Assembly (NCBI GenBank): GCA_017455845.1
Contig: JAFSYY010000021.1
Coordinates: 1-34,061, forward strand
Direction: 5' to 3'
DNA from: Prevotella sp.
GTDB lineage: Bacteria > Bacteroidota > Bacteroidia > Bacteroidales > Bacteroidaceae
DNA: 34,061 nt
Below are positions 3,470-22,282 of this stretch, one piece after another. The notes under the pieces were generated by a model that made no database searches, was not told where the DNA came from, and saw nothing but the letters and a program-made list of their open reading frames with translations. A program made the position numbers and the translations under genes. Position 1 is the first letter of the stretch; the number at the start of each line of letters is the position of its first letter.

Positions 3470-3550
3470 ATCCTTTTTTTTCAAATAAAGGAAAAAAAGA
3501 GCATGAAAATGCGATAGAAAAGTGGGACAACATATTGACACCACAATAAT

Positions 3551-3585: not shown

Positions 3586-3681
3586 GCTTGGTTTGCTTAG
3601 TTGTGTGTAGACGCGAAGCGTAGTTTTGACACAGTTCCTTTTGTGTTACTTATTCAAGTTTCGCATTCGCTCAACTTTAGT

Positions 3682-3837
3682 AGTTAAAAGGAGTTAGAAG
3701 GAGTTATCGGCCTTCGGCCTTAGGAGTTAGAAGTCGTTAGTTTCGACTTCTTGAAGAGTTATGGAGCGACAGGTCTATCGACTTTTAACTCCTAAGCGGC
3801 CATAGGCCGCGATAACTCCTTCTAACTCCTTTTAACT
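3682..3837. repeat. 156-bp inverted repeat with perfect 28-bp arms
   Basis: Bases 3682-3709 are the exact reverse complement of 3810-3837. The pairing continues imperfectly inward through GCC/GGC-rich segments and a central hairpin (AGAAGTCG...CGACTTCT). The arms are made of the AACTCCTTCT decamer also present at 802-851. The element starts 22 bases beyond the stop of the last susD. It could be a large 3'-end stabilising or terminating hairpin, or an inert inverted-repeat element. The rest of the gene-free stretch 3586-3681 shows nothing I recognise. Confidence 0.8.
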
Positions 3838-3858
3838 CCTCAACTTGAGAAAGTTGAA

Positions 3859-5925
3859 TTACTTATAGGGCAGGTAACAGTTGAGGGTGGTTATGCCTGC
3901 CGCATTGTTCTGGAGTTTCTGCGAGAGCCAGAGGTCACCGAAGGTGCCACTGTAGGTGCCTGCCTTGTTCTTGTGGATGGCAAGACGGCGCAGGTCGCTG
4001 AAGCGTGTGCCCTCGAAGGCAAACTCCATGGCATACTCGTCGCAGAGGAGGTCCTCAACGGCGTTGATATAGTCGTCCTTGGTGTAGGCCGGCGTGCCGA
4101 GGTTGAACTTCTTATAGACATCGTCGATCTTGGCCTTTACCACCGTGCTGTAGCGATAGGTGGAGTAGAGGTCTTCCACGGCGCCGGCACCATGTTTGTG
4201 AATACCGACGAACGATGTGGAGGCGCCGTTTCTGAACACATCGGAATTTTCCTGGGCCAGGAAGGGCAACTTGGTGGTGAGGAGTTCGTATGACTCCGGT
4301 GTGAGATAATACTTGTCGTCGAGGTGCGACTGTGTCATGTCGAGCACCTTGTTGCCGTCGGCATCGATAGAGTCGTTGCCTTCCTGATCTTTCAGGTAGA
4401 CCTCCAGGTAACGGTAGTTGGCCAACTCGGTATGGATGCCGTTCTTCAGCACGGCGAAGGCAGCGTCGGGATAGCCCATGCGGTTGATGGCCTCGGCCAG
4501 GTGGAGCCATACGGTGGTGTTGCGATAGAGGTAGATGTATGCCGTGGAGGGCTTGAGGGTGTAGACGTATGTAGAGTCGGCTCCGCTGCCCTGTACGACG
4601 ATAGAGGCACGTGCATCGCCAACGGCCTCATTCTTGACAATCCAGTTGAAGGGCGACACCTTCACCTGCTCAGTATAGTAGTAATACTGTGCACGGCGGG
4701 CAGAGTCGCAATAGGCGAGCGAGGGCACCACCTGGATATTCTCCGTCTTAGGACAACTGAACACTTCGCTGGCATCGGTCTGGACAGCACCCCTGGACTC
4801 TGTGCCATAGTAGTTGTAGCCGAAGACGGCGGGGATGTCGGTCGTCTTGCCCATGGTATAGTTGACGGCCATAGGGATGTAGGAGATCACATCGCCTGAC
4901 ACGGCATTATGACTATAGGAAGAGGTCCATGTGAGCATGCCGATGGAGGAAGAGGAAGTGTTCTTACTCTGGTTGTAGTCGGCGGGCCACTCGGTAAAGT
5001 CTTTGAAGATGGGGCAATACCTGGAGTAAGTGTCGCGCATAGGCAATATGTAATTGACTGCGGCATCGCTGAAGTCATCCCTATGCAAGGCTACATAATG
5101 CAGATAGTCGTAATAGCAGGTAGCAGCCTTTTCATACTCTCCCATTTCAAGATAGAGGTCACCAAGCACGATGTTGAGCGGTATGAAGCACTTGCGGGGC
5201 TGGATAGTCTTATCTGATTCTCTCCAATTGAGTTTTCCTACAGATATAATGGTGTTGGGTCCAAGGCCGAAGGTGGGAACGGATATTTGCTCCTCTGAGT
5301 ACCGGTTTTTCAGGATTTCCAGATTCTGCGCCTCGTTAGCGAGTATGGTCTCGTAGGGTGTCATCGAGGTATTGGCATCTATCTGTGCAATGGTGGTGAC
5401 GGGCTCTGTTATATAGGGCACGGCACCGTATTGGCGGGTAAGTTGCAGATAGGTCCATGCGCGGAAGGCAGCCACGGCAGCATACTCGTTGCACACCACA
5501 TTCTGTGCGCCCGTGGCCAGAGTGGTGTCGCGGTGGGCCAGATAGTAGTTGCAGTTGTTGATGACCTTATAATACTGGTACACGCTGTCGTACTTGTTCG
5601 ACGCGTCGGCCGTAAACGATGCGAGGCTGCTCAGGTGTGTGGATGCCTTGGCGGTAGGCCTCACCAGGTCGCCGCGCATCTCGTTCTGGAAGTAGTATTG
5701 GTCGGCCAGTTCCTGCATAGCCTGCATGATGCCGTAGGCATAGAACACGGAGTCTGTTTTCTGGTTGAGGTCCGGTTCGAACAACTGTCGCGAACTGTCG
5801 GACTCGAGCATATCGGAGCAGGAAATGAAAGCCCACCCAAGCCCTCCCAAAGGGAGGGATGTCAAGATACAAAAGAGCCACTTACGAGCCGTTCCTTTTA
5901 TGTTACTATACATGATGTTATTCAT
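3859..5925 (-). CDS. susD: SusD/RagB-family glycan-binding lipoprotein (pair 2)
   Basis: This 688-residue outer-surface lipoprotein should lid its SusC partner and help capture a nutrient, probably a glycan. The signal peptide ends in the lipobox AFISC. The mature part has SusD hallmarks: helical TPR-like segments such as AAVAAFRAWTYLQLTRQYGAVPYITEP near residue 150, NIVLGDLYLEMGEYEKAATCYYDYL, and the C-terminal LLCDEYAMEFAFEGTRFSDLRRLAIH. The start ATG at 5925 has an AT-rich leader typical of the phylum. It follows its susC by 84 bases and is the last gene of the operon. Unusually, signal residues LTSLPLGGLGWAF are encoded by a dispersed G/C-rich repeat (5828-5863) whose inverse copy abuts the susC stop. 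A non-homologous FAS1 lipoprotein upstream has almost the same signal peptide. Confidence 0.92.
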   Translation of the reverse strand: MNNIMYSNIKGTARKWLFCILTSLPLGGLGWAFISCSDMLESDSSRQLFEPDLNQKTDSVFYAYGIMQAMQELADQYYFQNEMRGDLVRPTAKASTHLSSLASFTADASNKYDSVYQYYKVINNCNYYLAHRDTTLATGAQNVVCNEYAAVAAFRAWTYLQLTRQYGAVPYITEPVTTIAQIDANTSMTPYETILANEAQNLEILKNRYSEEQISVPTFGLGPNTIISVGKLNWRESDKTIQPRKCFIPLNIVLGDLYLEMGEYEKAATCYYDYLHYVALHRDDFSDAAVNYILPMRDTYSRYCPIFKDFTEWPADYNQSKNTSSSSIGMLTWTSSYSHNAVSGDVISYIPMAVNYTMGKTTDIPAVFGYNYYGTESRGAVQTDASEVFSCPKTENIQVVPSLAYCDSARRAQYYYYTEQVKVSPFNWIVKNEAVGDARASIVVQGSGADSTYVYTLKPSTAYIYLYRNTTVWLHLAEAINRMGYPDAAFAVLKNGIHTELANYRYLEVYLKDQEGNDSIDADGNKVLDMTQSHLDDKYYLTPESYELLTTKLPFLAQENSDVFRNGASTSFVGIHKHGAGAVEDLYSTYRYSTVVKAKIDDVYKKFNLGTPAYTKDDYINAVEDLLCDEYAMEFAFEGTRFSDLRRLAIHKNKAGTYSGTFGDLWLSQKLQNNAAGITTLNCYLPYK

Positions 5926-6011
5926 ATTATAATATATTTATTGATGAGTATTATTCTTTGTTGCAAGTCTAACCCGACATCCCTCCCTTGGGAAGGGCTT
6001 GGGTGGGCTTT
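5828..6011 (-). repeat. Inverted-repeat cassette A spanning susC stop, susD start and signal peptide
   Basis: Two 36-base arms, 5828-5863 and 5976-6011, are reverse complements apart from one inserted and one deleted base. The outer arm reaches the TAA of susC (6010-6012). The inner arm is read as signal-peptide codons of susD. Each arm also contains its own small palindrome (CCCTCCC...GGGAGGG). The whole 184-bp unit is closely similar to cassette B at 11147-11327, including the spacer and start-codon region. Confidence 0.9.
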
Positions 6012-9000
6012 ACAGATTGATTTTTACACCCATGGAGAACATGCGTCCCTGTGCGATATTGCCACAGTCGATACCCTGGTAAAGTTGATTGCTGGCGGCA
6101 GAGAACTCGGGGTCGCTGCCCGTGTACTTCGTCAGGGTGATGAGGTTACGGCCTTCGGCCCATACGGAGATGCCTTGCAGCCATGACTGCCACGACTCGG
6201 GGATGGGTATCTGGTATGAGAGCATGACGCTCTTCATCCTCAGGTAAGAACCGTTTTCTATCCATCGGTCGGAGAAGCGGTTGTTGCCCATGGGGTCGCC
6301 ATAGCATAGGCGCGGCAGTTCGGTCTGCTGTCCCTCATAGCGCCAGTGTCCTACCTCGGCCACCTGCTGGTTGTAGAGCGTGGCGCCGCTGTTGAGTATG
6401 GAGCGCTGGTAGTTGTACACATCGTTGCCCAGGCTGTAGTTGAAGTTCATACCGAGTGTGAAGCGTTTCCAGTTGAGGTTCAAGAAGATATTACCATAGA
6501 TGTCGGGGTTGGGGTCGCCGATAATGGTCTTGTCGCGCTCATCAATCTGGTTGTCGCCGTTGAGGTCGACAAAGCGCATGTCGCCAGCCTGGAAATACTG
6601 CTTGGCACCTGTCTCGTCGACGATATAGAGACCGGCAGCCTGTGCGTCGGCGGTGGTGGCGAAGACGCCATTGGTCTTATAGCCATAGAACACGCCCACG
6701 GGGTTGCCCACGGAAGTGAGGATGTTGTCGGTGCCATAGATGGATGAGGTATAGTCGCCGTTGGCCAGCGACTTAACCTCGTTCTTATAATGGCCCAGTG
6801 TGGCCCCGATCTCCAGATGCCAGTCCTTCAGTGCGATGGGTTTGCCGTTGATGCCCACCTCGAAGCCGGTGTTGCGCACCTCGCCGTCGTTGGTCCAGTA
6901 GTTGTTGATACCGCCGATGGGGTTCTGGAAACTCTTGAGCACCAGCAGGTCCTTGGTGTTATGGATGAAGTAGTTGGCATTGAGGCCCAAGCGGTTGTGC
7001 AGGAAATTGGCCTGCAAGCCGACGTTGAACTTCGATGTTGTCTCCCATTTGATTTCCTCGTTGCCCACGTTGGTGAGTTGTATGCCAATCTGGGTGGAGT
7101 TATAGCGCACGGTATTGAACGAGGTACGTGCTGCATAGTTGCTGATGTCGTCGTTGCCGCTGAGGTCGTAGCCCACATTAAGGCGCAGATAGTCGATGCC
7201 AGCGTTCTTGGGGAACCAGTTCTCGTTGGTCAGCACCCATCCCAACTGCACGCTGGGGAAGAGCGCCCACTTCACGCCTGCCATCTTCATGCCGCCGTCG
7301 GCATTGCTGCCGAAACGGCTGTTTGCCTCGGCCAGCAGCGACACGGTGGCGAAGTAGCGGTTCATGTAGTTGTAGTCGGCGTTGACATACCACTGCATGT
7401 TCTTCCACACATCGTCGGCACCAGTCACCGTGGAATAGACATTTTTGCCTGTGTCGAGTTTCGGGTTCTTGTCGTCCTCGCCCTTGGTTGAATACTGTGT
7501 GGCGAGGTCGCTGTTATCGAACGAGAAATAGGTGTAGCGGAAGCCGCCCATGGCATTGACGGTATGTGCCCCGAACTTTTTGTTCCAGTCCAGATGGGTG
7601 TTGCTCAGCACGCTAATCTCCTTGGAGAAGATGGAGGCCGTCTTGGAATAGACGGTGCCAAGGTTCTCGATAGCGAATGAGGGCAGTCCGACGTTGGGGC
7701 GGTAGTAGGCCTGCGAGTTGCGGTTGAGGTAGTAACTGAAGTGTGTTGTCAGTTTCCAGTCCTTTGAGAACTCGTAGGTGGGAGCAATGGCCACGTTGAA
7801 GAAAGTGTTCTCGTTGCGGTTCTTACGCTCTCCGCTGCCGTTTTGTATCAGCGCCAGGGGGTTGGCCTGTGAGTAGTTGCCATCGTTGAGGGTGCTGAAG
7901 AGGTCGTCGGCATCCGACAGCAGCGATGTAAAGGCGTTGATATTCTTGTTGTACTGATAGGGGTTGAGCAGCGGGCTCTTGACGAGCGACAGGAAGGCGG
8001 GCGAGGTGATGATGCCGGCGTTCATATCTTCGGCAATGCCGTCGTCGAAAATATTGGTGTTTGAACGTGAGATCGACATATCAAACTTCGTGGTGAGGTT
8101 ATAGAGCAGGCTGATGTCCGTATTAAACCTCACGCTGACACGGTCGAAACTGGTCTCCTTGATATTCTTCATCGTCTGGATATAGGTCACAGAGAGGTTG
8201 TACATACCTATATCGTCGCCACCCTGCACGTTGATGCTGTAGTTATGGGTCAGGGCAGTGCGGTAGATATAGTCACTCCAGTCGGTATCGTTGTGATAGG
8301 TATTGTAGTAGTAGCCATCCTTGGCATCGTTGAGGAAGTTGAACTGCAAGGCGTTGGTCGTGGAGCCTATGCGCTCCTGCACCTCGGCGATGGTGCCGAG
8401 TTGCTCTGCGGCATAGTTACGATACTGTGTTGCATTCATCATCGTGGGGTAGTTGGGCACGAAGGTCCACCCCACGCCCATCTTGGCATCGATGCGTGTG
8501 GCCATGGAGTGGCCGCGCTTGGTGTCGATGATAATCACGCCGTTGGCACCACGGGCACCGTAGAGGGCGGTGGCATTCTTCAGCACCGTCACCTTGTCGA
8601 TATCCTCTGGCGAGATGGCCGACAGCATATTGAAGATGTCGCCCAGGTGGAGTGACTCTCTGTTGCGCTGCATGTCGAGTTCCACGCCGTCAAGGATGAC
8701 GAGGGGCTGTGCATTGGCATTGACCGAACTGATGCCTCGGATAAACATGGCCGCACCCTGTTCAAGGCTTCCTGAATGCATGTTCATGCGTATGTCGCCT
8801 CCCAGCCGTGCCGTCATCTCCTCGTCGATGGACAGACCGCCACCATTGGAGGTGAAACTGTTGCGGGCGGTGATGTTGGTGCCGTCGGCATACATCGGTG
8901 CAAAGGCATCGCTGAGCATGCTGATGCGCACCTGCTGGCTCTCGTCGCCGGCAATGATGGCCACCTGCTGCGACAGGTACGTGGGTGTCTGTACATAGAG

Positions 9001-9339
9001 CGAGGTGGTGAAGGTGGGTATCTTGATGGTAAATGTACCGTCTTCATCGGTCATGGCCACATACCGGTTGTCGTTGAGAGCCTGTATGCGCACACCTGCC
9101 ATAGGTGCCTTGGTGACATCGTCGACGACGACACCCCGGACGCTGATGGTGGGATTGGTGTCTACCACCTGCTTGCGCTTGGGAGCCTTGATGGCGGTGG
9201 GAGCATCCTCGTCATCGGCTTCATCCTGGGCGAAAGCCACGGAACTGGTGAGCAGCATGGCGGCTACCAGCATGTAAGAATTGAATAATTTAAAAATTAA
9301 AAAATTATTTCGTCTCATAATTCTATCGTTTTTTTTCAT
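6010..9339 (-). CDS. susC: SusC/RagA-family TonB-dependent transporter (pair 2)
   Basis: The outer-membrane importer of the second Sus pair has 1109 residues from the ATG at 9339. The frame is open back to 9429, but that would overlap the upstream stop; ATG 9318 is the alternative. A type I signal peptide ends in SSVAFAQ. A carboxypeptidase-like regulatory domain follows (ISVRGVVVDDVTKAPMAGVR). Next are the TonB plug (MFIRGISSVNANAQPLVILD, VTVLKNATALYGARGANGVI), the large beta-barrel, and the terminal strand RMFSMGVKINL ending hydrophobically as barrels do. Uptake would be TonB-driven with the following susD as lid. The first 25 or so signal residues (RRNNFLIFKLFN...) are nearly identical to those of the FAS1 lipoprotein at 13573 although the mature proteins are unrelated. 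Confidence 0.93.
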   Translation of the reverse strand: MKKNDRIMRRNNFLIFKLFNSYMLVAAMLLTSSVAFAQDEADDEDAPTAIKAPKRKQVVDTNPTISVRGVVVDDVTKAPMAGVRIQALNDNRYVAMTDEDGTFTIKIPTFTTSLYVQTPTYLSQQVAIIAGDESQQVRISMLSDAFAPMYADGTNITARNSFTSNGGGLSIDEEMTARLGGDIRMNMHSGSLEQGAAMFIRGISSVNANAQPLVILDGVELDMQRNRESLHLGDIFNMLSAISPEDIDKVTVLKNATALYGARGANGVIIIDTKRGHSMATRIDAKMGVGWTFVPNYPTMMNATQYRNYAAEQLGTIAEVQERIGSTTNALQFNFLNDAKDGYYYNTYHNDTDWSDYIYRTALTHNYSINVQGGDDIGMYNLSVTYIQTMKNIKETSFDRVSVRFNTDISLLYNLTTKFDMSISRSNTNIFDDGIAEDMNAGIITSPAFLSLVKSPLLNPYQYNKNINAFTSLLSDADDLFSTLNDGNYSQANPLALIQNGSGERKNRNENTFFNVAIAPTYEFSKDWKLTTHFSYYLNRNSQAYYRPNVGLPSFAIENLGTVYSKTASIFSKEISVLSNTHLDWNKKFGAHTVNAMGGFRYTYFSFDNSDLATQYSTKGEDDKNPKLDTGKNVYSTVTGADDVWKNMQWYVNADYNYMNRYFATVSLLAEANSRFGSNADGGMKMAGVKWALFPSVQLGWVLTNENWFPKNAGIDYLRLNVGYDLSGNDDISNYAARTSFNTVRYNSTQIGIQLTNVGNEEIKWETTSKFNVGLQANFLHNRLGLNANYFIHNTKDLLVLKSFQNPIGGINNYWTNDGEVRNTGFEVGINGKPIALKDWHLEIGATLGHYKNEVKSLANGDYTSSIYGTDNILTSVGNPVGVFYGYKTNGVFATTADAQAAGLYIVDETGAKQYFQAGDMRFVDLNGDNQIDERDKTIIGDPNPDIYGNIFLNLNWKRFTLGMNFNYSLGNDVYNYQRSILNSGATLYNQQVAEVGHWRYEGQQTELPRLCYGDPMGNNRFSDRWIENGSYLRMKSVMLSYQIPIPESWQSWLQGISVWAEGRNLITLTKYTGSDPEFSAASNQLYQGIDCGNIAQGRMFSMGVKINL

Positions 9340-9364
9340 TATTACATTATATAATTTTTTAATT
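9295..9364 (-). repeat. AT-rich inverted repeat flanking the second susC start
   Basis: The 14-base arm ATAATTTTTTAATT (9351-9364) touches the stop codon of the upstream FAS1 gene (9365-9367). Its exact reverse complement (9295-9308) lies in the signal-peptide codons of susC (NFLIF region). The start codon lies between them. Confidence 0.75.
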
Positions 9365-11242
9365 CTAATTATCCTGATTAGCCCACATATCATTATATGC
9401 CTTCGGCACAAGATAGACACCTGCCACACGCATCTGCTGGTCGAACTTCTTACGGTTGGACGAGGAGGTGTAGCCCTTGGTGTGCATCATCATCAGACTG
9501 GGATAGGCATCCAAGCCATAGTAGCAGACAGGGAAGGTGAACTCACCAAGGTCGAAGACGTTGACACGACCCGGGTCGCCTATACACGTCAACTTATTGG
9601 TGCTGGTGCCTTCGTCGGTGGTCATCTCAATATCCTTGTTGGCACCCTGCGGCAACACGGTGAGTTGCTGTTTGTTGGAGGCATCGGTCCAACTGAGGTA
9701 GAAGCGCAGGTAGTAAGGCTTCACGTCGGCCAGCGGTTCTTCCACCTGTGCCGGCACGGTGATAACATAGATATGGTAGGTGGTAGAACGCACGCCCTCT
9801 AAGGCGAAGTTAAACTCGGGCTTACCCGTCGTACCGTCGATATTTGCACTGTCGACAGCCACGTAGGTGAAGAAGCGCGATGTAGCGGGGAAGAGCCACT
9901 GATGGAACATCTCGGGCACCTTGCTGAAGAGTGTGTCGCGGCGGCTTGCCAGGCTGTCGAGCGCTATATTATGAGTGGTGAGTTTGTTGACCTTCATCGT
10001 GGTGAGCACCTCGCGGCCATTAACCTCTACAGAAGGTCTTCTGGTAAAGATCATGGGGTTGTAGGTGTTCCACGGGCTGAAGGTCAGCGAGTCGATGACA
10101 CGTGTAATGCCGTTGCTCATCTGGCCGGTGGCAATGGTATGCTCGAGTACTGTCTGGGCGTTGGTCAGGTAGCGGCCGCTGGTGGCCACTACTGTGTCCT
10201 TGGCTGTCAGGGTGCCTTGGCCGAACAAGGGGTTGTTCTTAGGATAGCAGGCAGAGAACACGAGGTTGTTGACAATATTGCGGCATGTCAGCGAGTCCTG
10301 CAGTTCGCTGGTGGCCTCGGCCGCCTTGTCGGCCTTGGCATCGGTGGCCTTTACAGAGGAGGCAACGAGAGTCTTCTTCGTGAGGTCCATATAGTCCAAC
10401 TTTGCGATATAGTTGTAGCAGGGATTGATAGCGGCGTATGCATCGTTCCATGCCTTGTCGTTGGGCACCAGCATACAGTAGGTGCTGTCCTCATCCTCAA
10501 GGTCGGCACGCATGATGGTACGAATCACATTGTTGCGTTTCTTCATCACCGAGTCGAGATAAGTCTGCTTGCCGTCGCGCAGCGGGCCGATGACGGATGC
10601 ATTGACATCAAGGTAATACTCGTCGTATTTCTGTATGTAGGCCTTGATAGAGTCGCATCCCGTCAGGTCGTCGATGTTCTCGTAGATATTGTTATGGAAC
10701 TCCGACATACCGCTGATCTTGTGCATCACGCCGTTGGTGGCAGGCAGGTTGACGGCACTGTATGCAAAGCCGTCGAAGGAAGCCTGCGTAAAGTCGTGGT
10801 GCTTGTTGTTGAGCGAGGTAATCTTGGTATTGTCGAGAGCGGCCGAGACAAGATGGTTGTACTCGGTAATATGCTGCTGCATAAACTGCTTCACGATGGT
10901 GGCACTGTCGCTGGCCATGAGGCGGTTGTAGTCAGCATCGCTGATGGCCTCGTTGACAGGTGCCCACACGGTATAGAAGCGCGGACTGTTGAGAGTCTCG
11001 GAGAAGTTGCACTTACGTGCCAGTTCGGCAAACCTGGTGAGTTGCTGGTCGCTGGAGATATTCTCCCACAGCGTCTGGTTGGCACCGGGCACAATGGCGT
11101 CCGACGGCACCGTGTTGTAGTCGTCGTAATCGGAGCAAGAGGTGAGAGCCCACCCAAGCCCTCCCAAGGGGAGGGATGTCAAGGCACAAATGAGCCACTT
11201 ACAAGCCACGCCGGTTATATTTTTGAATTTGATATTACTCAT
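9365..11242 (-). CDS. FAS1 (fasciclin) domain lipoprotein, third in operon
   Basis: This 625-residue lipoprotein has lipobox ALTSC. One or two FAS1-like regions follow: residues about 60-290 hold the typical FAS1 pattern (LTRFAELARKCNFSETL, FYTVWAPVNEAISDADYN, FMQQHITEYNHLV, LPATNGVMHKI), with a second copy around CMLVPNDKAWNDAYA. The C-terminal third looks like a beta-sandwich (YHIYVITVPAQVEEPL..., YYLRFYLSWTD). In Bacteroidetes such proteins are found with SusC/SusD pairs as additional surface components; their ligand is unknown. Its signal peptide LTSLPLGGLGWALTSC comes from the same repeat cassette as that of the second susD. It lies between a sister FAS1 gene and the second susC in a single operon. 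Confidence 0.82.
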   Translation of the reverse strand: MSNIKFKNITGVACKWLICALTSLPLGGLGWALTSCSDYDDYNTVPSDAIVPGANQTLWENISSDQQLTRFAELARKCNFSETLNSPRFYTVWAPVNEAISDADYNRLMASDSATIVKQFMQQHITEYNHLVSAALDNTKITSLNNKHHDFTQASFDGFAYSAVNLPATNGVMHKISGMSEFHNNIYENIDDLTGCDSIKAYIQKYDEYYLDVNASVIGPLRDGKQTYLDSVMKKRNNVIRTIMRADLEDEDSTYCMLVPNDKAWNDAYAAINPCYNYIAKLDYMDLTKKTLVASSVKATDAKADKAAEATSELQDSLTCRNIVNNLVFSACYPKNNPLFGQGTLTAKDTVVATSGRYLTNAQTVLEHTIATGQMSNGITRVIDSLTFSPWNTYNPMIFTRRPSVEVNGREVLTTMKVNKLTTHNIALDSLASRRDTLFSKVPEMFHQWLFPATSRFFTYVAVDSANIDGTTGKPEFNFALEGVRSTTYHIYVITVPAQVEEPLADVKPYYLRFYLSWTDASNKQQLTVLPQGANKDIEMTTDEGTSTNKLTCIGDPGRVNVFDLGEFTFPVCYYGLDAYPSLMMMHTKGYTSSSNRKKFDQQMRVAGVYLVPKAYNDMWANQDN

Positions 11243-11327
11243 ATCTTCTATATATTTATTAATGATTGTAATAATTCTGTTGCATGTCTAATCCATCATC
11301 CCTCCCGTGGGAGGGCTTGGGTGGACT
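11147..11327 (-). repeat. Inverted-repeat cassette B spanning FAS1 stop, next FAS1 start and signal peptide
   Basis: The arms at 11147-11180 and 11297-11327 are near-perfect reverse complements of the GGGAGGGCTTGGGTGG type. One arm meets the TAA of the upstream FAS1 gene (11327-11329); the other encodes the signal core LTSLPLGGLGWAL. The spacer, start-codon region and first 20 codons match cassette A (5828-6011) although the genes on both sides are unrelated to those around cassette A. Confidence 0.9.
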
Positions 11328-13573
11328 TAGTACCAGTCCTCGGTCATGGTCTGGCTGTTGACAATGTCGAGGGGCACCAGTTCCACGAAGTCGAACGACC
11401 ATCCAAGGTTGGTATCGTTCACGAGGTTCTTGATGCGCAGCCAGTAGTCCTTGCCCTGTTCAAAGCGCTGGGAGGTGATGATACGTCGCAGCATCATGGT
11501 GCCGTAGCCTGTCTCTGAGCGACAACTGGTAGAGCCGATAATCTGGCTGGCGGCCGAATAGATGTCGTCGTCGGAATAGGTCAGCGGGTCGGTAACAGTA
11601 TTATAAGTACCGCGCGAGAAGGATGCCGGTGCACGCATGTAGCCGCGCACGTGCATGCGCTGGTCGCTCTCCACACCGCAGTCTGACGTCTCGTCGTCGG
11701 CACGGTTGATGATATCCTCGTAACCGATGGTGGCATCCTCGTAGGGGTTGGCGCAGGCATCGAAAGGAATGCCGATGGCCACCATGTCGCTCTGCTTCGA
11801 CGAGTTGCCCAGATAGAACTGCATCAGTCCGCCACGAGCCATAGGCGGATAGATGATACGCAACTCATAGTCGCCGGTAGGCACGTGCGGCAGTTTGATG
11901 GCAAAGTCATAGACATCCCATCCCTGGAACTGGTCGCTGTTGTGTGCACGCCATGCTCCCATGACGTTGAAGCGCAGCAGTGTGCCGGGGTTATAGCATA
12001 CGATATTGTCGAAATAGGTATTCTCGAAGGCCACACGGTTGCCGTCGCCGCCACCGTTGAGGGTGCTCACATATTGTGGCGTGGCACCACGCAGGCCGTT
12101 GTTGATCAGTTCGTAGAGGAACGTGGAGGAGTCGAAGCGCAGACGCTCGTGGAGGGCATCCTTGGCGTTCTGGTCGTATTTCAGTATGCCCTTGATGCGG
12201 TGGATATAGCCGTTGAGCGTCTCTACGCTGCCGTCGCGGTCTACGGGCACGCCGGCGAAGACCAGCGTATGGTCACCGTCGCCCGGTGTGCCGAAGAGTC
12301 CCAGTTTGGATGTCAGCGTGTTATTGGTCAGATAGCGGTTCAGCCACAGGTTCTTCGTGGTCTTGGGGTTGGTCTCCCATACCTTCAGGATGGTGTTGGG
12401 AAGCATCGTCTCGAAATACTCCTGGGGTTCATAGCCGAAGCAGAAGTTCCAGGAGGCATTGGTATCGGCGTTCTTCTCGTAGACGATACGGTCGACCGAC
12501 ATGCCTGCACGCAGGATATGATAGGCCACGAACATGTTCACCACGTTGAAGGGGTTGGTGTAGTCGTCGCCCGTGCTGATGGTGATATTCTTCTCGTTGA
12601 TATAGTCGTACCAGCCGCTGCAGTTGCCATACCACTCCACGCACTTGGCCTTCAGGTCGGCAAAACTGTTGATGCCGGCAGCACGGAACACATCGTCGGT
12701 CTCGGCAAAGACTGTCCACTTAATCATACACTCCTTGGGATAGTAAAGGGGGTTCTTGTCACGGTCGTTGTGGTTGTCGCCCAGGTCGTAGGTCTTGGTC
12801 GTACCGTCGGAATTAAGTTTCTTCTCTATCAGGAGGGTGTCGGTAAAGCCGGTGGCCTCCAGTGCGGCATAGAAGATGCTGAGGTCTTTCTCGCCCTCCA
12901 CACGCAACTGGTCGTCGGTGGTGCGGTCGGAGCGAGGTATCACATTCGAGATGACATGCAGTATGCCGTTGATGGCCTCGATGTCGCCCTCGACAATGGC
13001 GGAGACGTCGTTGAGGCTGGTGAGTCCCACGAACGCCGGGTCGTAGGCATTCTCTTCGAAGATGCCCACGCGGACGGTGCGTCCGGTCTTCATCGTGCTC
13101 CACGTCGTGGCAGTACCATCAAGATCCACCTGTTTGTGTTCTTCGCCTGAGAGGTGGAAGCGTGCGATGTCGTCGCACAGGGAGTCGGACATCAGGTTCA
13201 CCTTGGCCATCACGTCGAGGCTGCTCCAGTTGGCAACCTCCTGGATGCCGTTGTGCTTCACCTTGGCCTTTGAAATGAGGTACGACTCATCGTTATAGAG
13301 GCTGTCGAGATACTGGCTCACGCCGTCGTTCACGGGAGCGAAGCAGGTATATTCGCCATACGTTCCCATGTACTTGTCGAAGCCACCTTTCTCCAGTATG
13401 CGGTAGAAAGCCGACAACTCACTCCTGTCGCGCAGCAACTCGGCGATGGTCTTCTGGTCGGACGAGAAGAGGTTGGAGCCGTCGGGTTCCTCATTACAAC
13501 TGGCCAGCAGTGTTACTGCTGCCAGAATGTAAAAATTAAATAATTTAAAAATTAAAAAATTATTTCGTTTCAT
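11327..13573 (-). CDS. FAS1 (fasciclin) domain lipoprotein, second in operon
   Basis: This 748-residue lipoprotein has signal MKRNNFLIFKLFN... and lipobox LLASC. The first FAS1 domain begins near residue 40 (IAELLRDRSELSAFYRILEKG, GEYTCFAPVNDGVSQYLD) and ends with INGILHVISNVIPRSD. A second FAS1-like region follows (LSIFYAALEATGFTDTLL...). From about residue 500 comes a beta-rich C-terminal region with DYELRIIYPPMARGG and WSFDFVELVPLD, which could be a carbohydrate- or ligand-binding sandwich. Presumably surface-exposed and co-expressed with the SusCD pairs on each side. The AT-rich signal-peptide DNA is shared with the second susC. Function beyond adhesion or ligand binding cannot be read from the sequence. 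Confidence 0.82.
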   Translation of the reverse strand: MKRNNFLIFKLFNFYILAAVTLLASCNEEPDGSNLFSSDQKTIAELLRDRSELSAFYRILEKGGFDKYMGTYGEYTCFAPVNDGVSQYLDSLYNDESYLISKAKVKHNGIQEVANWSSLDVMAKVNLMSDSLCDDIARFHLSGEEHKQVDLDGTATTWSTMKTGRTVRVGIFEENAYDPAFVGLTSLNDVSAIVEGDIEAINGILHVISNVIPRSDRTTDDQLRVEGEKDLSIFYAALEATGFTDTLLIEKKLNSDGTTKTYDLGDNHNDRDKNPLYYPKECMIKWTVFAETDDVFRAAGINSFADLKAKCVEWYGNCSGWYDYINEKNITISTGDDYTNPFNVVNMFVAYHILRAGMSVDRIVYEKNADTNASWNFCFGYEPQEYFETMLPNTILKVWETNPKTTKNLWLNRYLTNNTLTSKLGLFGTPGDGDHTLVFAGVPVDRDGSVETLNGYIHRIKGILKYDQNAKDALHERLRFDSSTFLYELINNGLRGATPQYVSTLNGGGDGNRVAFENTYFDNIVCYNPGTLLRFNVMGAWRAHNSDQFQGWDVYDFAIKLPHVPTGDYELRIIYPPMARGGLMQFYLGNSSKQSDMVAIGIPFDACANPYEDATIGYEDIINRADDETSDCGVESDQRMHVRGYMRAPASFSRGTYNTVTDPLTYSDDDIYSAASQIIGSTSCRSETGYGTMMLRRIITSQRFEQGKDYWLRIKNLVNDTNLGWSFDFVELVPLDIVNSQTMTEDWY

Positions 13574-13652
13574 ACCTATAATCTTTTTTACATTATTCTT
13601 TTAGTCGCTACGCTTTATAAAGGCGCTTAAGCGAGTTCATTTTTTAATTTTT
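13547..13652 (-). repeat. AT-rich inverted repeat flanking the second FAS1 gene start
   Basis: The arm at 13639-13652 (ATTTTTTAATTTTT) lies 7 bases beyond the SusD stop. Its exact complement at 13547-13560 lies in the signal-peptide codons. Between them are the start codon and a copy of a dispersed repeat, AAAGCGTAGCGACTAAAA on the minus strand, also found in plus orientation at about 19033-19050. Confidence 0.7.
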
Positions 13653-13659
13653 ACATTTT

Positions 13660-15441
13660 TCAATATTTGGCCGTAGATTTATACACCGGATTCTGAACAA
13701 GGTTGGTGTTGATTTCCACCTCGTCCTGGTTAATCGGCATATAGAGGTAGCGTTCGTCGCGCATCTTGGCACGCATGGCCGAGGGTACGGTGTACTTACG
13801 CAGTGCCAACTCAAAGAACTCGTCGCTATTGTTCACATAGCCCTCAGTCAGTTTGTTCTTCAGACTGGCCTGTGTCTGGGTGTGACGGTAGTTATAGCGC
13901 ATGAGGTCGAACCAGCGCTTGCCCTCGAAGCACAACTCACGTGCACGCTCGGCCAGCACCAGTGCCTCCATCTTGTCGCGGTAGACGGAATACTTCAATG
14001 AATAAGATACCTTGTTGGCTTCCGACAGGGCGCGGTCGTTGACAAACTGGCAGATGGCAAAGGCCTCCTCGTTGCGGGTGTCGCCCTCGGCCTTGCCACC
14101 CAGTTCATAGAGTTGCACCAGGGCCTCGGCCTTCATGAGCATCACGTCGGTAAGGCGATAGAAGATCCAGTTCCTATTCATGTCAAACCCTCGGGAGCCA
14201 GAGGGGTTGGCATCTGCGCTGGTGAGGTAACCACTAATAATCGGAGCCACATACTTACGCACGCTGAACTGCTCTACGCTGCTGCTGTTGGCATCATAGA
14301 CAAATTCCAGGAGGCGCTGGTCCACGCCGTTCATCCACACCCCGTTGCCGGTAGCGTCGACCTTTCCGTAAACCGACGATGCCTTCAGGTAGCCATAGCC
14401 GTTATCGCTTTTATTATTATAGCGGTAGTACATCTGATCCATGCCGCTGTTGGCTGTGCTGGAAAGGCTGAACTGCAGTTCGAAGATGCTCTCCTCGGCA
14501 TTCTGGTTATCGACACCGAAGAGGTCGGCATACATGGTTGTGTAGTCGGCCAGATAGTAGTCCTTCACTTCTTCCTCGCCGCCCCAACTGCGCTGACGTG
14601 GTTTCTGCTCGTAGGCATACTTCTTGGCGGCAATCACCTTGTCGCAATAGTCTATGCATGCCTGATAGTCGCTGGCATCGCGGTTGACGGAGGCCCGCCA
14701 GAGGTAGATGTCGGCCAGAAGTGCGTTGATGCCGTCTTGGTTCAGGTAGCCCTTGTCGCGCCAGTCGCCGTAGGTGTTGCCCGGTATGGCATACTTCGCT
14801 GCCTCGGTGAGGTCGTCGATACACATGGAGAGCACGGCATCGGGAGTCCACTGCGATGCGTTGAGGTCGTCGCTGCTGTTGAGGTAGGCACCAGGTGTCA
14901 CGGGAATATCGTGGAACACCCGTGTGAGGTAGAAGTAGCAGAAGGCCCTTAGTGCGAGCATCTGCGACTTGTTGGCGTCATAGTCGCCCTGCGTATAGTC
15001 GGGGTCTACGGCAATGACACCCTCTGCCTTCTCCAGCACCAGGTTGCAATAGTTGATGGCGGAATAGAAAGGTGCCCAACTGGTGAACTCATTCTCCGAC
15101 GCGATGTTGAGAGAATAGATTTGCGACAGGGCATCCCTGTAAGTGGCAGAGGTGGGTAGTGTGGAGGTGTAGTCCAGTTCATCGGAACGGAAATCGCCCC
15201 ATATAATCATATTGCGTATGGCAGAGGCTTCGCGCAACTGTGCGTAGGCCGTTGCCACGACAGCATTCACCTCGCTCTTCTTCTGCCAGAAGTCATCGTC
15301 GACGGTCTTGTTGTCGGGTAGGATGACCGTATCAACACAGGAAGTGAAGAGTGAAGAGTGAAGAGTGAAGAATGTTGCACACAGCAACAACTTCATCGTC
15401 ATGTTCAAACTTCTTTTCCTGTTATAAATTACTTGTTCCAT
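13660..15441 (-). CDS. susD: SusD/RagB-family glycan-binding lipoprotein (pair 1)
   Basis: The SusD partner of the first transporter has 593 residues from the ATG at 15441. Alternatives are ATG 15402 and 15396; the open frame reaches 15495. I prefer 15441 for its AT-rich leader and the RKR charges before the hydrophobic core. The lipobox is LFTSC. SusD features include WQKKSEVNAVVATAYAQLREA, APFYSAINYCNLVLEKAEGV, LRAFCYFYLTRVFHDIPV, and the C-terminal LAERARELCFEGKRWFDLMRY with YLYMPINQDEVEINTNLVQNP. It starts about 75 bases after susC. The signal-peptide core FTLHSSLFT is encoded by four TTCACTC/T heptamers, so slippage by one unit would shift the frame. Confidence 0.92.
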   Translation of the reverse strand: MEQVIYNRKRSLNMTMKLLLCATFFTLHSSLFTSCVDTVILPDNKTVDDDFWQKKSEVNAVVATAYAQLREASAIRNMIIWGDFRSDELDYTSTLPTSATYRDALSQIYSLNIASENEFTSWAPFYSAINYCNLVLEKAEGVIAVDPDYTQGDYDANKSQMLALRAFCYFYLTRVFHDIPVTPGAYLNSSDDLNASQWTPDAVLSMCIDDLTEAAKYAIPGNTYGDWRDKGYLNQDGINALLADIYLWRASVNRDASDYQACIDYCDKVIAAKKYAYEQKPRQRSWGGEEEVKDYYLADYTTMYADLFGVDNQNAEESIFELQFSLSSTANSGMDQMYYRYNNKSDNGYGYLKASSVYGKVDATGNGVWMNGVDQRLLEFVYDANSSSVEQFSVRKYVAPIISGYLTSADANPSGSRGFDMNRNWIFYRLTDVMLMKAEALVQLYELGGKAEGDTRNEEAFAICQFVNDRALSEANKVSYSLKYSVYRDKMEALVLAERARELCFEGKRWFDLMRYNYRHTQTQASLKNKLTEGYVNNSDEFFELALRKYTVPSAMRAKMRDERYLYMPINQDEVEINTNLVQNPVYKSTAKY

Positions 15442-15510
15442 AGTTGAATTATTTTTGTGCCCGCAGGAAGCGGTAGCAAATTCTTCATTCTTCATTCTTC
15501 ACTCTTCATT
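15341..15510 (-). repeat. Heptamer arrays in inverted orientation flanking the first susD start
   Basis: The GAAGAGT-type heptamers at 15341-15373 lie in signal-peptide codons. The opposite-sense heptamers TTCATTC/TTCACTC at 15481-15510 lie 6 bases from the susC stop. The 14 bases 15360-15373 and 15494-15507 are exact reverse complements, so the junction has the same arm layout as the others. Confidence 0.8.
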
Positions 15511-15516
15511 AAATGG

Positions 15517-18500
15517 TTAGAATCCAAAACTGAGGCTGGCAGTCACCGACTTCGACCTTGGCGTGGTAGCACTGTCGGAGGCAGGCGAATAGGTACCTGT
15601 AGCAATTTCCGGATCGATGCCGGTGTACTTTGTCAAGCAGAAGAGGTTGTTCATCGTCACGTAGGCCGAGAGGCTGCTCAATCCAATCTTCTTGACAGCC
15701 TTCTTAGGCACGCTGTAAGACAGTTGCAGGTTGTTCAGGCGCAGGAACGAGCCGTCCTCGACGAAGCGCGAACTCACCTGGTAGTTATAGCCGGTGCCGT
15801 AGAGGGCACGGGGTATCGGAGTCACGTCGCCGTCCTTGCGCCAGCGGTAGGTCACCGACGAGCACTGGTTCTCCGTGCTGTACATGCTCTCCAGGCCCAT
15901 ACGTGCGGTGTTGATGATCTTGTTGCCCCAGCGGTAGTTGAAACGCGACACGAGTTTCCAGTTGCCATACTGCAGCGTGAGGCTGAAACCGCCCTGCATC
16001 TTCGGCAGTGAGTTGCCCAGATACTTGATGTCGAGTTCGTTGATGGTACCGTCGTGGTTCACATCCTCGTAGATGGCATCGCCACCCTTGAACTCATAGT
16101 TGGCGTCACCATAATAATATGTAAGGTGCTTGGGCACGCCGGTGTTGGTCATAATCACCTTGCCGTTCTCGTCGGTAGCCACTGGGAAGGTCTTGCCCTC
16201 AGCCAGTTGCTCGTTGATCCACGCCTCGTAGTCCCAATCGTAGGTCTTACCCTGTGCCACGGCCTGCTGCTGCAACTGCAGTTGCTTGGTGTTGTAGTTG
16301 GTCAGGTAGTCGTAGGAATACTGGAACACGCCCAGGCTCTGAAAACCGTAGATAGAGCAGAGGGGATCGCCCACGACGACGCGGTTGAGGATGGACTTAG
16401 AGCCACGGTTATCGTAATAGGGAGTTGTGTTCAGGTTGTTGAGCACGCGCTGGTCCATCTCCAGCAGTTTGTTCACGTTCTGAGCGATGTTGAAACTGGC
16501 AGACACCGAGAATTTCTTGACTCTGATGAACTTATTGCCCGTGAGGGTCAACTCCCAACCTTTGTTCTCCATCTCGCCCACGTTGCCGTAAGACAAAGTG
16601 GTGGAGGTGTTCCATGTGGCCGACGTAGGAATGGGTATGCCCTTCATGATCAGGTCCTTGGTATTCTCCTTGTAGAGGTTCAGGTCTACCTCCAGCATGT
16701 CGTCGAGGAAGCCTACGTTGAAGCCGAGGTTCAAGCCAATCTTCTTCTGCGGGCGCAGGTCGTCGAGTTTCATGCCGCTCATCGTGGTGTAATTCAAGGT
16801 GCCATAGCGTCCAACAAGTGAGGTGTACTGGTTGAAGTAGTTCTCCACGGACACGCTGGAACTACCGGTGATACCCCATGAGCCACGGATGCCAAACATC
16901 GACACCACCTTCTTCAGAGGTTTGAAGAAAGACTCTTCGCTCACGTTGTAACGCAACGACACGTTGGGTGAATAGAACCACGGGTTCTTGGGGCCGAACT
17001 TCGAGTTGCCGTCGGCACGCAAGCCAAAGCCGAGGCTATAGCGTGACTTATAAGAGAAGTGGGCACTGTAGACCCAGTCCTGCCACGCCGACTTGGTGGT
17101 GCTGGGCTGATTGTTCATGCCCAGCAGGTTGGCATCGATGGTGGCCGACTCAATGCCGTTGGGTATGGAGTTCTGACCGATATACTGATAGGTGTTCTTC
17201 TGCGTGCCGGCCTCATAGCGTGCGAACATCGTGAGGTAGAAATCCTCGTTCTTGAAGGCGGGCGTGTAGGTGAGGGTCACGCGAGAGCCCATCTTAAACT
17301 GGTTGGTCTCCGTATTCGTGGTGAAGTTATAGTCGCCGGCGGAATAACTGCCGTTAGACAGGCTGCCGGGCATATACGTAGGCTTGGAGTAGGCGTAGAT
17401 GTCGAAATAGACGCGGCCGTCGAAGGTCAGGCGGTGCTTGCCGTTCTCCGTGCCGAGGAGTTCGTACTTGATGTTGAAGTCGGGCACGATGCTGTAGGTC
17501 TTCTCCCGCTGCCAGGAGTTGTTGGCGTAGGCCACAGGGTTGCCTATATTCACGACGTCCTGCAACTGCAAGGAGGTGTAGTTACCATCGTCGGGGGTCA
17601 TGTTCTTGTCTGTGGGGTTCATCAGGAAATACTCGCCCGTATTGTTGTTATAGCGGTCGTAGCGGTAGATGCTGGCATTGGGTGCCATGGCGAGTGCCAT
17701 GGCGAGCAAGGCGCTGTTCGACGAGTTGTTCTTGCTGCTGCCATAGGTGTAGTTCTTCAGGTTATCGGTATAGGTCAGGGCGAAGTTCGTGGAGAAGCGT
17801 ATGCGGTCGCTGACGTTATAGTCCAATACCAGGCGGGTGGTCAGACGGTCCATCGTCTGCTTGATGACGGTACCCGTCTGGTGGTTGTAACTGGCCGAGA
17901 TACGGAACTGAGCCTTCTGGCCGCCACCCGAGATATTGAACGTGGCCTCGTGCTGCTCACCAAACTGCTTGATGGCGTCCACCCAGTCGGTGTTCTTGTT
18001 CCAGTTGTTGGCCTCGGCCCACGACTCGGCGGGCACGTAGTTGATCTCGTTGATGGTAGCGGTGGCCGACGAACTCTGGGTGGGGTTGTAGAACTCCTCC
18101 TTGAGCATCATGGTGTAGTTGTCACCGTTGAGCAGGTCGTAGCCGGCGGGCATCCATGTGCCGGTGAACTTATAGCCGAGTTTCACCTGCGGTTTGCCAC
18201 GTGCACCGCGCTTGGTGGTGATCTGTATCACACCGTTGGCACCCTGCGAGCCCCAGATGGCCGTGGCGGCGGCATCCTTCAGCACGGTGATGCTGGCGAT
18301 ATCGTCCACGCTGATGGCGAGCATCGATGAGAAGGCCTCCTCGTCGATGCTCTCCGGGTCGAAGTCGGCCTTGTCGTATTCAAAGATCTTGTCGTCGACG
18401 ACGATGAGGGGCTCTGCGCTGCCGTTCAGCGTTGACACACCACGCAGGCGCATCGACGTACCGGCACCGAGGTTACCCGAGTTGCTCACAATATCCAGAC

Positions 18501-18969
18501 CGGCGATCTCACCCTGCAGGGCCTCGTCGGCCGAGGTGAACGCCATACCTTCTACCTCCGAGAAATTAAAGGTCTGCTGCGAGACGGAGATCTCGCGCTT
18601 GTCGATGTTCAGGCCGCCGGAGGTGGTGCGGCGTCCTTTCACCGTCACCTCGCTGAGCGTGGTCTTGTCGTCTTCCAGACGTATGGCAAATGTCTTCTTG
18701 TCGCCAATAGGAATAATCTTGGTCTTACTGCCAACGTAAGAGACGACGAGTTTGTTTTTCGGGTTCTTGATCTCCATGGAGAAATTACCCATCATATCGG
18801 TCTGTGTGGCACTGACGATACGGTTGTTGCCGTCGCGCTCCACCACGTTGGCCATCATCACCGGCCCCATGGCATCTTCCACATTACCTGATATGACTCT
18901 TCCCTGTGCCCACATCGTCTGAGCGATGACGGCAAACAGGATTGTCAGTATAATTTTGGATTTAGACAT
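15517..18969 (-). CDS. susC: SusC/RagA-family TonB-dependent transporter (pair 1)
   Basis: The 1150-residue outer-membrane transporter has signal peptide MSKSKIILTILFAVIAQ with probable cleavage at WAQG. The N-terminal carboxypeptidase-like domain reads VISGNVEDAMGPVMMANVVE, with IRLEDDKTTLSEVTVKG at the end, the usual lead-in to the plug. The TonB plug is SMRLRGVSTLNGSAEPLIVV and ITVLKDAAATAIWGSQGANG. A full barrel ends in VTASLSFGF with the C-terminal aromatic. The start ATG is unambiguous. Unlike the other genes of this operon, its signal peptide is not made of repeat DNA, but the heptamer array after the preceding stop is present. It should import a substrate, probably an oligosaccharide, with the next susD. 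Confidence 0.94.
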   Translation of the reverse strand: MSKSKIILTILFAVIAQTMWAQGRVISGNVEDAMGPVMMANVVERDGNNRIVSATQTDMMGNFSMEIKNPKNKLVVSYVGSKTKIIPIGDKKTFAIRLEDDKTTLSEVTVKGRRTTSGGLNIDKREISVSQQTFNFSEVEGMAFTSADEALQGEIAGLDIVSNSGNLGAGTSMRLRGVSTLNGSAEPLIVVDDKIFEYDKADFDPESIDEEAFSSMLAISVDDIASITVLKDAAATAIWGSQGANGVIQITTKRGARGKPQVKLGYKFTGTWMPAGYDLLNGDNYTMMLKEEFYNPTQSSSATATINEINYVPAESWAEANNWNKNTDWVDAIKQFGEQHEATFNISGGGQKAQFRISASYNHQTGTVIKQTMDRLTTRLVLDYNVSDRIRFSTNFALTYTDNLKNYTYGSSKNNSSNSALLAMALAMAPNASIYRYDRYNNNTGEYFLMNPTDKNMTPDDGNYTSLQLQDVVNIGNPVAYANNSWQREKTYSIVPDFNIKYELLGTENGKHRLTFDGRVYFDIYAYSKPTYMPGSLSNGSYSAGDYNFTTNTETNQFKMGSRVTLTYTPAFKNEDFYLTMFARYEAGTQKNTYQYIGQNSIPNGIESATIDANLLGMNNQPSTTKSAWQDWVYSAHFSYKSRYSLGFGLRADGNSKFGPKNPWFYSPNVSLRYNVSEESFFKPLKKVVSMFGIRGSWGITGSSSVSVENYFNQYTSLVGRYGTLNYTTMSGMKLDDLRPQKKIGLNLGFNVGFLDDMLEVDLNLYKENTKDLIMKGIPIPTSATWNTSTTLSYGNVGEMENKGWELTLTGNKFIRVKKFSVSASFNIAQNVNKLLEMDQRVLNNLNTTPYYDNRGSKSILNRVVVGDPLCSIYGFQSLGVFQYSYDYLTNYNTKQLQLQQQAVAQGKTYDWDYEAWINEQLAEGKTFPVATDENGKVIMTNTGVPKHLTYYYGDANYEFKGGDAIYEDVNHDGTINELDIKYLGNSLPKMQGGFSLTLQYGNWKLVSRFNYRWGNKIINTARMGLESMYSTENQCSSVTYRWRKDGDVTPIPRALYGTGYNYQVSSRFVEDGSFLRLNNLQLSYSVPKKAVKKIGLSSLSAYVTMNNLFCLTKYTGIDPEIATGTYSPASDSATTPRSKSVTASLSFGF

Positions 18970-22194: not shown

Positions 22195-22282
22195 CGAGGT
22201 ACGAGGTACGAGGTACGAGGTACGAGGTACGAGGTGCGAGGTACGAGGTGCGAGGTACGAGGTGCGAGGTGCGAGGTGCGAG
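22195..22282. repeat. Heptamer array CGAGGTA/CGAGGTG, 12.6 units
   Basis: Perfect 7-base periodicity runs over 88 bases. Only the seventh base varies (A or G), in the order AAAAAGAGAGGG. It lies just beyond the terminator of the 928-aa gene. Rare variation at one position suggests recent expansion. The rest of the gene-free stretch 21978-22194 is AT-rich leader of the first FAS1 gene with no feature I can support. Confidence 0.95.

Follow-up and report, generated by a model that had tools for sequence, protein, structure and literature searches.

On the minus strand of a Prevotella sp. contig, an operon of six genes encodes two SusC-type and two SusD-type proteins and two fasciclin-domain (FAS1) proteins, in the order susC1, susD1, FAS1a, FAS1b, susC2 and susD2. 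At each of its five junctions, a stretch of DNA near the upstream stop codon returns as its reverse complement within the signal-peptide codons of the next gene. What are these inverted repeats, and why does the same layout recur at every junction? We analysed a window consisting of the whole 34,061-nt stretch of contig JAFSYY010000021.1 (assembly GCA_017455845.1), which is contig C82 of a 2.43-Mb, 124-contig genome that is 68% complete (the "own" genome below; L, G and C numbers are our handles for loci, genomes and contigs). The inverted repeats are probably the ends of palindromic elements similar to miniature inverted-repeat transposable elements (MITEs) and Rickettsia palindromic elements (RPEs), together with leader cassettes built from them, which were copied between unrelated genes.

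Inverted repeats at the five junctions

The inverted-repeat pairs are present at all five junctions (J1 to J5, from susC1 to susD2; Table 1), with arms lying where a first-pass annotation of this DNA had placed them and extended on realignment; the segment between the arms measures 16-133 nt. The same annotation put one arm at, or within 7 bases of, every upstream stop, which fails at J1, where the arm starts 8-9 nt past the stop. The likely start codon at J1 lies at 15439-15441 (MEQVIYN...), judging from an ATG conserved across the M1 family. At J2 there is also a longer and weaker arm match (13629-13668/13531-13570, 40 nt, 80%), and its spacer holds a hairpin that by eye resembles a repetitive extragenic palindrome (REP).

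As had been proposed, three unrelated repeat families produce the layout. The five pairs are nevertheless not five separate events, since J3 and J5 represent a single cassette present twice (79.6% identity over 201 nt) and J2 and J4 have the RNNFLIFKLFN leader in common.

Leaders shared by unrelated genes

The whole operon is present in 14 named records of Prevotella or Prevotellaceae, including the complete genome of P. communis E15-14; with the own genome added, 15 genomes and 75 junctions could be compared. At four of the five junctions, species differ block by block in the DNA that reaches from the upstream stop to the end of the signal peptide, and the same block turns up in front of different genes. 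The window's J1 leader also precedes susD2 in L206. The J3/J5 leader precedes FAS1b and susD2 both in the window and in L194. In the window, the J2/J4 leader precedes FAS1a and susC2; elsewhere it is found before susD1 (L198 and L204) and before FAS1a (L204). Between FAS1b and susC2, 13 of the 14 relatives have one shared leader, unlike that of the window, with stop and start overlapping in nine of them; in the window and in L202 this leader is replaced, not pushed aside.

Matches between junctions of different genes (E<=1e-6) amounted to 95 pairs, 43 of which span the start codon in both members. Different protein classes (SusC, SusD or FAS1) are linked by 36 of these 43, and 39 of the 75 junctions are involved; control windows placed 600 nt into the genes gave 0 pairs. 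Relative to the upstream stop and to the anchor of the mature part of the protein, the median edges of the shared blocks lie at +2 and -12 nt, respectively. Some copying within a genome is recent: in L202, identity between the leaders of susD1 and susC2 reaches 97.4% over 117 nt and runs from the stop to the right arm. There, susD1 is preceded by susC1 and susC2 by FAS1b, and neither the genes before nor those after the two leaders are of one family. Since this pair shares neither flank, plain homologous exchange between paralogous genes cannot produce it. The FAS1a and susD2 leaders of L202 are likewise 94.7% identical over 152 nt, and a pair on own contig C22 reaches 95% over 169 nt. The suggestion that signal peptides may arise from repeat DNA is well supported: some of the signal-peptide residues are encoded by the right arms, and whole arm-bearing leaders have been copied between unrelated genes.

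We also observed, at the susC2 to susD2 junction of L195, an in-frame hairpin segment (GTCGCAATGTCATTGCGAC) in the n-region of the leader, apparently (by eye) an element inside a leader.

Cassette edges

The edges of the M1 cassette were located in near-full-length matches (>=130 nt only), of which 20 were among the matches listed besides that of the window, in 14 genomes. One of the 21 copies was left out for its short flank and one downstream protein for its length, leaving 20 aligned copies with the window's among them. The search query was as long as the cassette and flank identity was measured beyond it: mean pairwise identity was 0.25-0.31 in the left flank, 0.85-0.92 in the left arm, 0.44-0.70 in the interior, 0.82-0.93 in the right arm, 0.39 in the lipobox and 0.27-0.30 in the right flank. 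The edges of the 170-bp cassette are the ends of the arms, that is, terminal inverted repeats lie at the ends of the element. The upstream stop is found within -7 to +14 nt of the cassette start in 18/20 copies (-22 and -42 in the others), and an in-frame ATG lies inside the cassette in 18/20, the two without it being on own contig C4. The downstream proteins fall into 10 clusters. M1 elements are ~160-185 nt long and have no transposase gene inside.

Palindromic elements in the genome and the genus

Elements of this kind are dispersed well beyond the operon. The heptamer motif (<=2 mismatches) had 467 matches in the own genome vs 112 for a reversed control, and close inverted repeats with a score >=15 numbered 55 in 570 kb, against 6 mirror repeats. 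Of these 55 palindromes, 35 are wholly intergenic, 12 have both arms in one open reading frame (ORF), seven have one arm in the 5' part of a gene and the other upstream, and one has its arms in two ORFs. Both neighbours are known for 25 of the 35 intergenic palindromes; 16 of these lie in same-strand gaps, vs 243/338 gaps overall, and hence the intergenic palindromes show no preference for operon junctions. Across the genus, DNA searches detected the J1 cassette in 104/150 genomes and family P in 51/150, many of the matches being to the arm only.

Among the 12 palindromes within one ORF, one is J1 of the window (start called in the left arm), three score only 15 and eight score >=19. Those eight lie in MetY, PriA, Mfd, a fucokinase/fucose-1-phosphate guanylyltransferase (FKP), an ABC-F protein, an alpha-glucosidase-like protein, a second putative glycosidase (by eye) and a TPR/OmpA protein. 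The four that were compared with solved structures of homologues (MetY, PriA, Mfd and FKP) are all interrupted at the element, in frame. In MetY, residues 35-255 align to 8sf5 as far as its residue 231 and residues 302-495 resume at the adjacent residue 232, the insert being residues 256-301; the alignment is broken between residues 378 and 418 in PriA, 606 and 651 in Mfd, and 58 and 92 in FKP, where the element measures 82 nt. The FKP and TPR/OmpA elements have the heptamer arms of the J1 cassette and its TTTGCTACCGC core, which indicates that one element type lies within genes and across junctions; its arms are also found between genes.

The fucokinase gene has received palindromic insertions of two families in two genomes, with a heptamer element in the own genome (L081 3847-6711) and two family-P arms in G034 (L132 11806, 12772), and may be a tolerant target.

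Family P, with its GC-rich arm, has 16 matches in the own genome, 14 of which form seven inverted pairs at distances of 100-191 bp. Each of the nine places is flanked by two genes on the same strand. The left arm begins within ~10 nt of a stop at 7/9 of them, the right arm lies within the coding part of the next gene at 6/9, and at L005 and L010 the called upstream ORF extends into the element. The right arm gives an extra N-terminus of the KHPSLGEGLGG type to CoaD (TIGR01510) and to proteins read as IspH, IlvN and a chromate transporter, so it is not only secreted proteins that are affected. Homology of IlvN to its relatives starts at query residue 23-28 in all matching genomes except G021 (residue 5), and that of CoaD at residue 15-26, in both cases at or near the end of the right arm. 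Among the other ilvN (25) and coaD (29) junctions displayed, no family-P arm was seen; many of these junctions are short or overlapping, and three with long gaps (L166, L173, L192) were shown in part. The long gap of L192 holds a related GC-rich palindrome.

Several further observations concern family P and its targets. In G034, the genome richest in this family among 60 compared, family-P arms also occur in tandem with a period of ~45-58 bp, inside or beside genes (L133 5360-5762, L121, L123), and thus single arms multiply too. The own genome bin contains two ispH-like genes (C95, at L010/L284, and G000:C123:351-689), and the copy with the family-P N-terminus stops early (139 aa) at a contig edge, possibly an effect of assembly or strain mixture. 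In G028 and G027 (L180 and L184), too, the N-termini of CoaD (AACAGCCAACAGCC and ATTGTGAATAGTGAATTG) appear to be encoded by repeats, which belong to other families.

Frequency of paired arms

We scored the reverse-complement match between stop arm and start arm at the called same-strand junctions of 40 sampled stretches of the own genome plus the window, with mispaired junctions as control. At high scores, true junctions exceeded the controls. Outside the window (535 kb), 4/226 junctions reached a score >=14 vs 0/1120 mispaired ones, and direct matches on the same strand occurred in 2/226 at 14 and in 0 at >=16. With the window included, 7/234 junctions (three in the window, four outside) scored >=16 vs 0/1168 mispaired and 0/234 direct. 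J1 was missed by this automatic scan because its start is called inside the left arm. In G034, in stretches chosen around family-P sites, 4/164 true vs 2/816 mispaired junctions scored >=14. The layout with one arm at the stop and the other in the signal peptide is real and present elsewhere in the genome, yet rare. Its presence at 5/5 junctions of the operon is exceptional (Fisher p ~2e-8), a value that describes unusualness only, the operon having been picked for this feature.

Coding capacity of the arms and proposed mechanism

The two strands of most heptamers differ sharply in what they can encode. For 7/9 heptamers tested (AATGAAG, AGTGAAG, AATTGAT, AATTGAA, TGAGAAA, CAATAAA and TGAGAAT), stops occur in each of the three frames of the left-end strand and in no frame of its complement. 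In an array of any of these seven, whichever frame enters the right arm consequently yields one repeating heptapeptide. Both strands of ATTAGTA and of ATTAGAA contain stops, and none of the three 9- and 10-mers tested shows the two-strand property. No right arm of the ATTAG type in reverse orientation was noticed among the 75 junctions displayed. The coding capacity of the heptamer strands, combined with selection removing gene-breaking insertions, would lead to the layout with a stop at one arm and a signal peptide at the other. With M4 and P arms, it can be argued only that the arm is read in an open frame.

We propose the following mechanism. Palindromic elements of several families lie between genes, in frame within enzymes and across the stop/start junctions of operons. 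At a junction, the left arm would follow the upstream stop, or sometimes supply it, and form an A/T-rich leader in families other than P; the loop would hold the start and first codons together with an A/T-rich ribosome-binding region. The right arm would be translated as signal-peptide residues (FILHSSFF, LTSLPLGGLGWAL or NFLIFKLFNFY) or, in cytosolic enzymes, as a short extra N-terminus such as KHPSLGEGLGG. Whole cassettes are then copied among unrelated genes of the operon and of the genome; this copying is shown by the data, as are the arms, the cassette edges and the in-frame insertions. Movement may be due to a trans-acting enzyme or to template switching, selection would keep the in-frame events, and the encoded leaders would presumably work as signal peptides; insertion followed by loss and template-switch copying would both fit the replacement of leaders. 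The hairpin in the mRNA would be a consequence of the palindrome, and its regulatory role is putative and unproven.

More tentatively, Prevotella may possess a dispersed and still active leader-cassette system, in which the left end provides a stop and a ribosome-binding leader, the right end provides a signal peptide (independently of frame for heptamer arms), and the whole is copied from gene to gene. Secretion signals and translation starts would then be exchangeable modules, a bacterial counterpart of signal-peptide exon shuffling.

Alternative explanations

The first-pass annotation had read each pair as an mRNA stem that loops out the ribosome-binding region and start codon. The folding part of this claim stands in silico, with all five stems formed at a mean arm-arm pairing probability of 0.78-0.97; as the reason for the layout the stem is possible but not supported, given that pairing is not kept at orthologous junctions. 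In this rival reading, long-range stems that display the ribosome-binding site and start in their loop were selected to set translation ratios or to protect the message. Against it, pairs with an ungapped score >=12 are found at only 11/70 orthologous junctions of the 14 relatives (16/75 with the window, vs 66/5250 mispaired). Gapped rescoring at >=13 gave the same picture, with 17/75 vs 92/5250 for arms from other genomes and 22/300 for other junctions of the same genome. By reading, the family-P leader of L195 has kept its start and signal peptide and lost its left arm. The 35 wholly intergenic palindromes and the eight high-scoring ones within other ORFs argue in the same direction. Two observations on the M1 copies favour selected pairing: the arms of one copy match each other better than permuted arms do (0/300 permutations, a comparison that still contains the relatedness of the copies), and left-G and right-C content are correlated (permutation p 0.009, n 21). 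Such matching within a copy is equally expected from shared descent or arm-to-arm conversion. We therefore regard hairpins selected for function as an unlikely origin of the layout, while at some junctions the pairing may nevertheless have a function. Inverted repeats flanking a short segment are also a common layout of invertons, and the 16-133 nt between the arms could be taken for invertible segments by which the start region is switched on and off. An inversion, though, would take the start codon away, and three families in one operon would require several recombinases. No reversed orientation was noticed in the 20 M1 copies or the 75 junctions displayed, neither of which was set up to seek one, and no recombinase search was made; from the layout and these displayed copies we set aside an invertible promoter or start region as very improbable. 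Chance complementarity between A-rich leaders and T-rich signal-peptide codons does produce short matches (score 9 in 32/1168 mispaired junctions). It is refuted by the mispaired controls, which are empty at the scores that true junctions reach both with and without the window, and A/T composition does not account for the GC-rich family P, which leaves this reading hardly credible.

Leader shuffling by recombination alone, through double-strand-break repair or microhomology template switching, with palindromes that cause fragility and are not mobile, overlaps the reading as palindromic elements and cassettes; taken as a route of its own it seems to us somewhat unlikely. Three results favour it and also weigh against mobile elements. 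A MITK-type leader was copied without visible paired arms (by reading), and arms are thus not needed for copying. The native leader is gone at junctions such as that between FAS1b and susC2, so simple insertion is insufficient and the layout calls for a step of replacement. The eight intragenic copies examined showed no convincing target-site duplication (direct repeats of 5-6 nt only, in 3/8), and none was noticed at the edges of five aligned cassette pairs. Further results weigh against mobile elements without bearing on this route. No transposase was linked to the elements, PF01797 (RAYT/Y1) alone having been sought: across 35 genomes, the own included and G034 not among them, it matched in 26/35, and the 68% complete own genome gave one 23-bit match in a 376-aa frame. 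In the own sample, the coding sides of gene starts were not clearly more often shared than mid-gene control windows (8/208 vs 6/208); whole start windows with their 5' flank gave 67/208 vs 11/208. At score 12, direct matches outnumbered inverted ones outside the window (6/226 vs 4/226), and hence only strong pairs stand out. Finally, the 14 relatives had a strong pair in 0/37 junctions outside the operon (Fisher p 0.015 against the 11/70 within it, with slightly different junction definitions in the two sets). What speaks for palindromic elements over recombination alone is that the M1 edges coincide with the arm ends in the 20 aligned copies, and that palindromes lie in enzymes with nothing apparently replaced, as in MetY, where the insert falls between adjacent residues of the homologue.

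Relation to known systems

We compared the elements with four known systems. RPEs are ~100-150 bp long, have terminal inverted repeats and occur in many copies, in frame in conserved unrelated proteins as well as between genes (PMC10969869, PMC2229807). The present elements are likewise found in frame within conserved enzymes and between genes. They differ in the organism, in having arms of tandem 7-10-mers or a GC-rich palindrome, and in that their junction copies bear a start codon and signal peptide and are copied between genes as leaders. By this analogy they appear to work like RPEs, a likeness in behaviour and not a membership by sequence. The YPAL/RU-2 MITE of Yersinia is palindromic, partly forms a signal peptide when translated (locus YPO1552) and can be cotranscribed with upstream genes (PMC2229807). 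One locus is highlighted there, whereas here the pattern is repeated in several families and whole leaders, start included, are exchanged among SusC, SusD and FAS1 genes.

REPs are grouped with REPINs and bacterial interspersed mosaic elements (BIMEs) as comparison systems. GTAG/CGTC REPs form inverted doublets mostly 20-100 bp apart, their ends often supply the stop to flanking ORFs, and they have intragenic copies too, many in replication and repair genes (PMC3733652). Inverted doublets, stop-supplying ends and intragenic copies are all found here, with PriA and Mfd comparable to the REPs in replication and repair genes. In contrast to those REPs, the arms are longer, no GTAG tag was seen at the termini and no REP-associated tyrosine transposase (RAYT) was linked to them. 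The absence of a terminal GTAG/CGTC tag was judged by reading, with no systematic test, and GTAG sits inside the core of the heptamer element (GCGGTAGCAAATT). BrickBuilt of Porphyromonas gingivalis is, like the elements here, a Bacteroidales MITE that holds a tandem repeat; it differs in being reported as always intergenic, with promoter activity and with translation judged unlikely (PMC4596501). Of the features of MITEs, the present elements have the terminal inverted repeats and the many short dispersed copies; target-site duplication was not found. In the open-access literature searched we found no report of leader cassettes exchanged between genes, while palindromic in-frame elements and one MITE-derived signal peptide are already known.

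These leaders bear on where new bacterial signal peptides come from. The same leader DNA can be traced between the SusC, SusD and FAS1 genes of one conserved operon in 15 genomes, which makes the origin and replacement of signal peptides directly countable. A single repeat, read on its two strands, can yield an untranslated leader whose every frame has stops as well as a hydrophobic coding stretch that is open in all frames. For annotation, extra N-termini or inserts such as KHPSLGEGLGG, LHSSFFI and TPDPSLRGRG in these genomes should be read as repeat-derived.

Features of the window

Table 1. Operon genes, junction cassettes and the intergenic element past susD2 (positions in the window)
Feature	Position	Strand	Description
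susC1	15517..18969	-	TonB-dependent receptor plug and carboxypeptidase-regulatory-like domains; stop codon 15517-15519
J1 cassette, susC1 to susD1	15345..15508	-	Type M1, heptamer arms; left 15480-15508, right 15345-15373 (29 nt, 93%)
susD1	13660..15495	-	SusD_RagB, SusD-like_3; ORF start as called falls within the J1 left arm
J2 cassette, susD1 to FAS1a	13526..13668	-	Type M4, A/T-rich arms; left 13639-13657, right 13526-13544 (19 nt, 95%); start 13571-13573
FAS1a	11327..13573	-	Fasciclin domain
J3 cassette, FAS1a to FAS1b	11147..11327	-	Type P, GC-rich arms; left 11304-11327 overlaps stop, right 11147-11170 (24 nt, 92%); start 11240-11242
FAS1b	9365..11242	-	Fasciclin domain
J4 cassette, FAS1b to susC2	9295..9364	-	Type M4; extended arms 9338-9364/9295-9321 (27 nt, 81%), core 9351-9364/9295-9308; start 9316-9318 or 9337-9339
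susC2	6010..9339	-	SusC/RagA family, TIGR04056
J5 cassette, susC2 to susD2	5828..6011	-	Type P; left 5976-6011 overlaps stop, right 5828-5863 (36 nt, 94%); start 5923-5925
susD2	3859..5925	-	SusD_RagB, SusD-like_3
Palindromic element past susD2, wholly intergenic	3670..3849	.	180 bp; arms 3670-3709/3810-3849 (40 nt, 93%); 10-mer (TAACTCC-type) arms

Between positions 3500 and 16000 of the window there were 0 matches to Rfam families at gathering scores. The element past susD2 recurs with identical arms and spacing on another contig (L076 3302-3481). In the first gene of the window (87-818), the N-terminus LITYHFSLLTS is apparently encoded by a heptamer array (134-167, ACTTCTC), a further repeat-derived signal peptide. 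A 7-bp tandem repeat, CGAGGTA, lies in 12.6 copies between two genes at 22195-22282. Near the contig end, 33274-33686 holds a cluster of tandem and inverted repeats with the 22-mers GTTGACCTAGGTCAGCAGATCG and GAGCCTGTTTTGACCTGCAAAC, and the pair GTCTAACGACCGATGTGGGTT from this cluster occurs a second time at L063 19657-19790.

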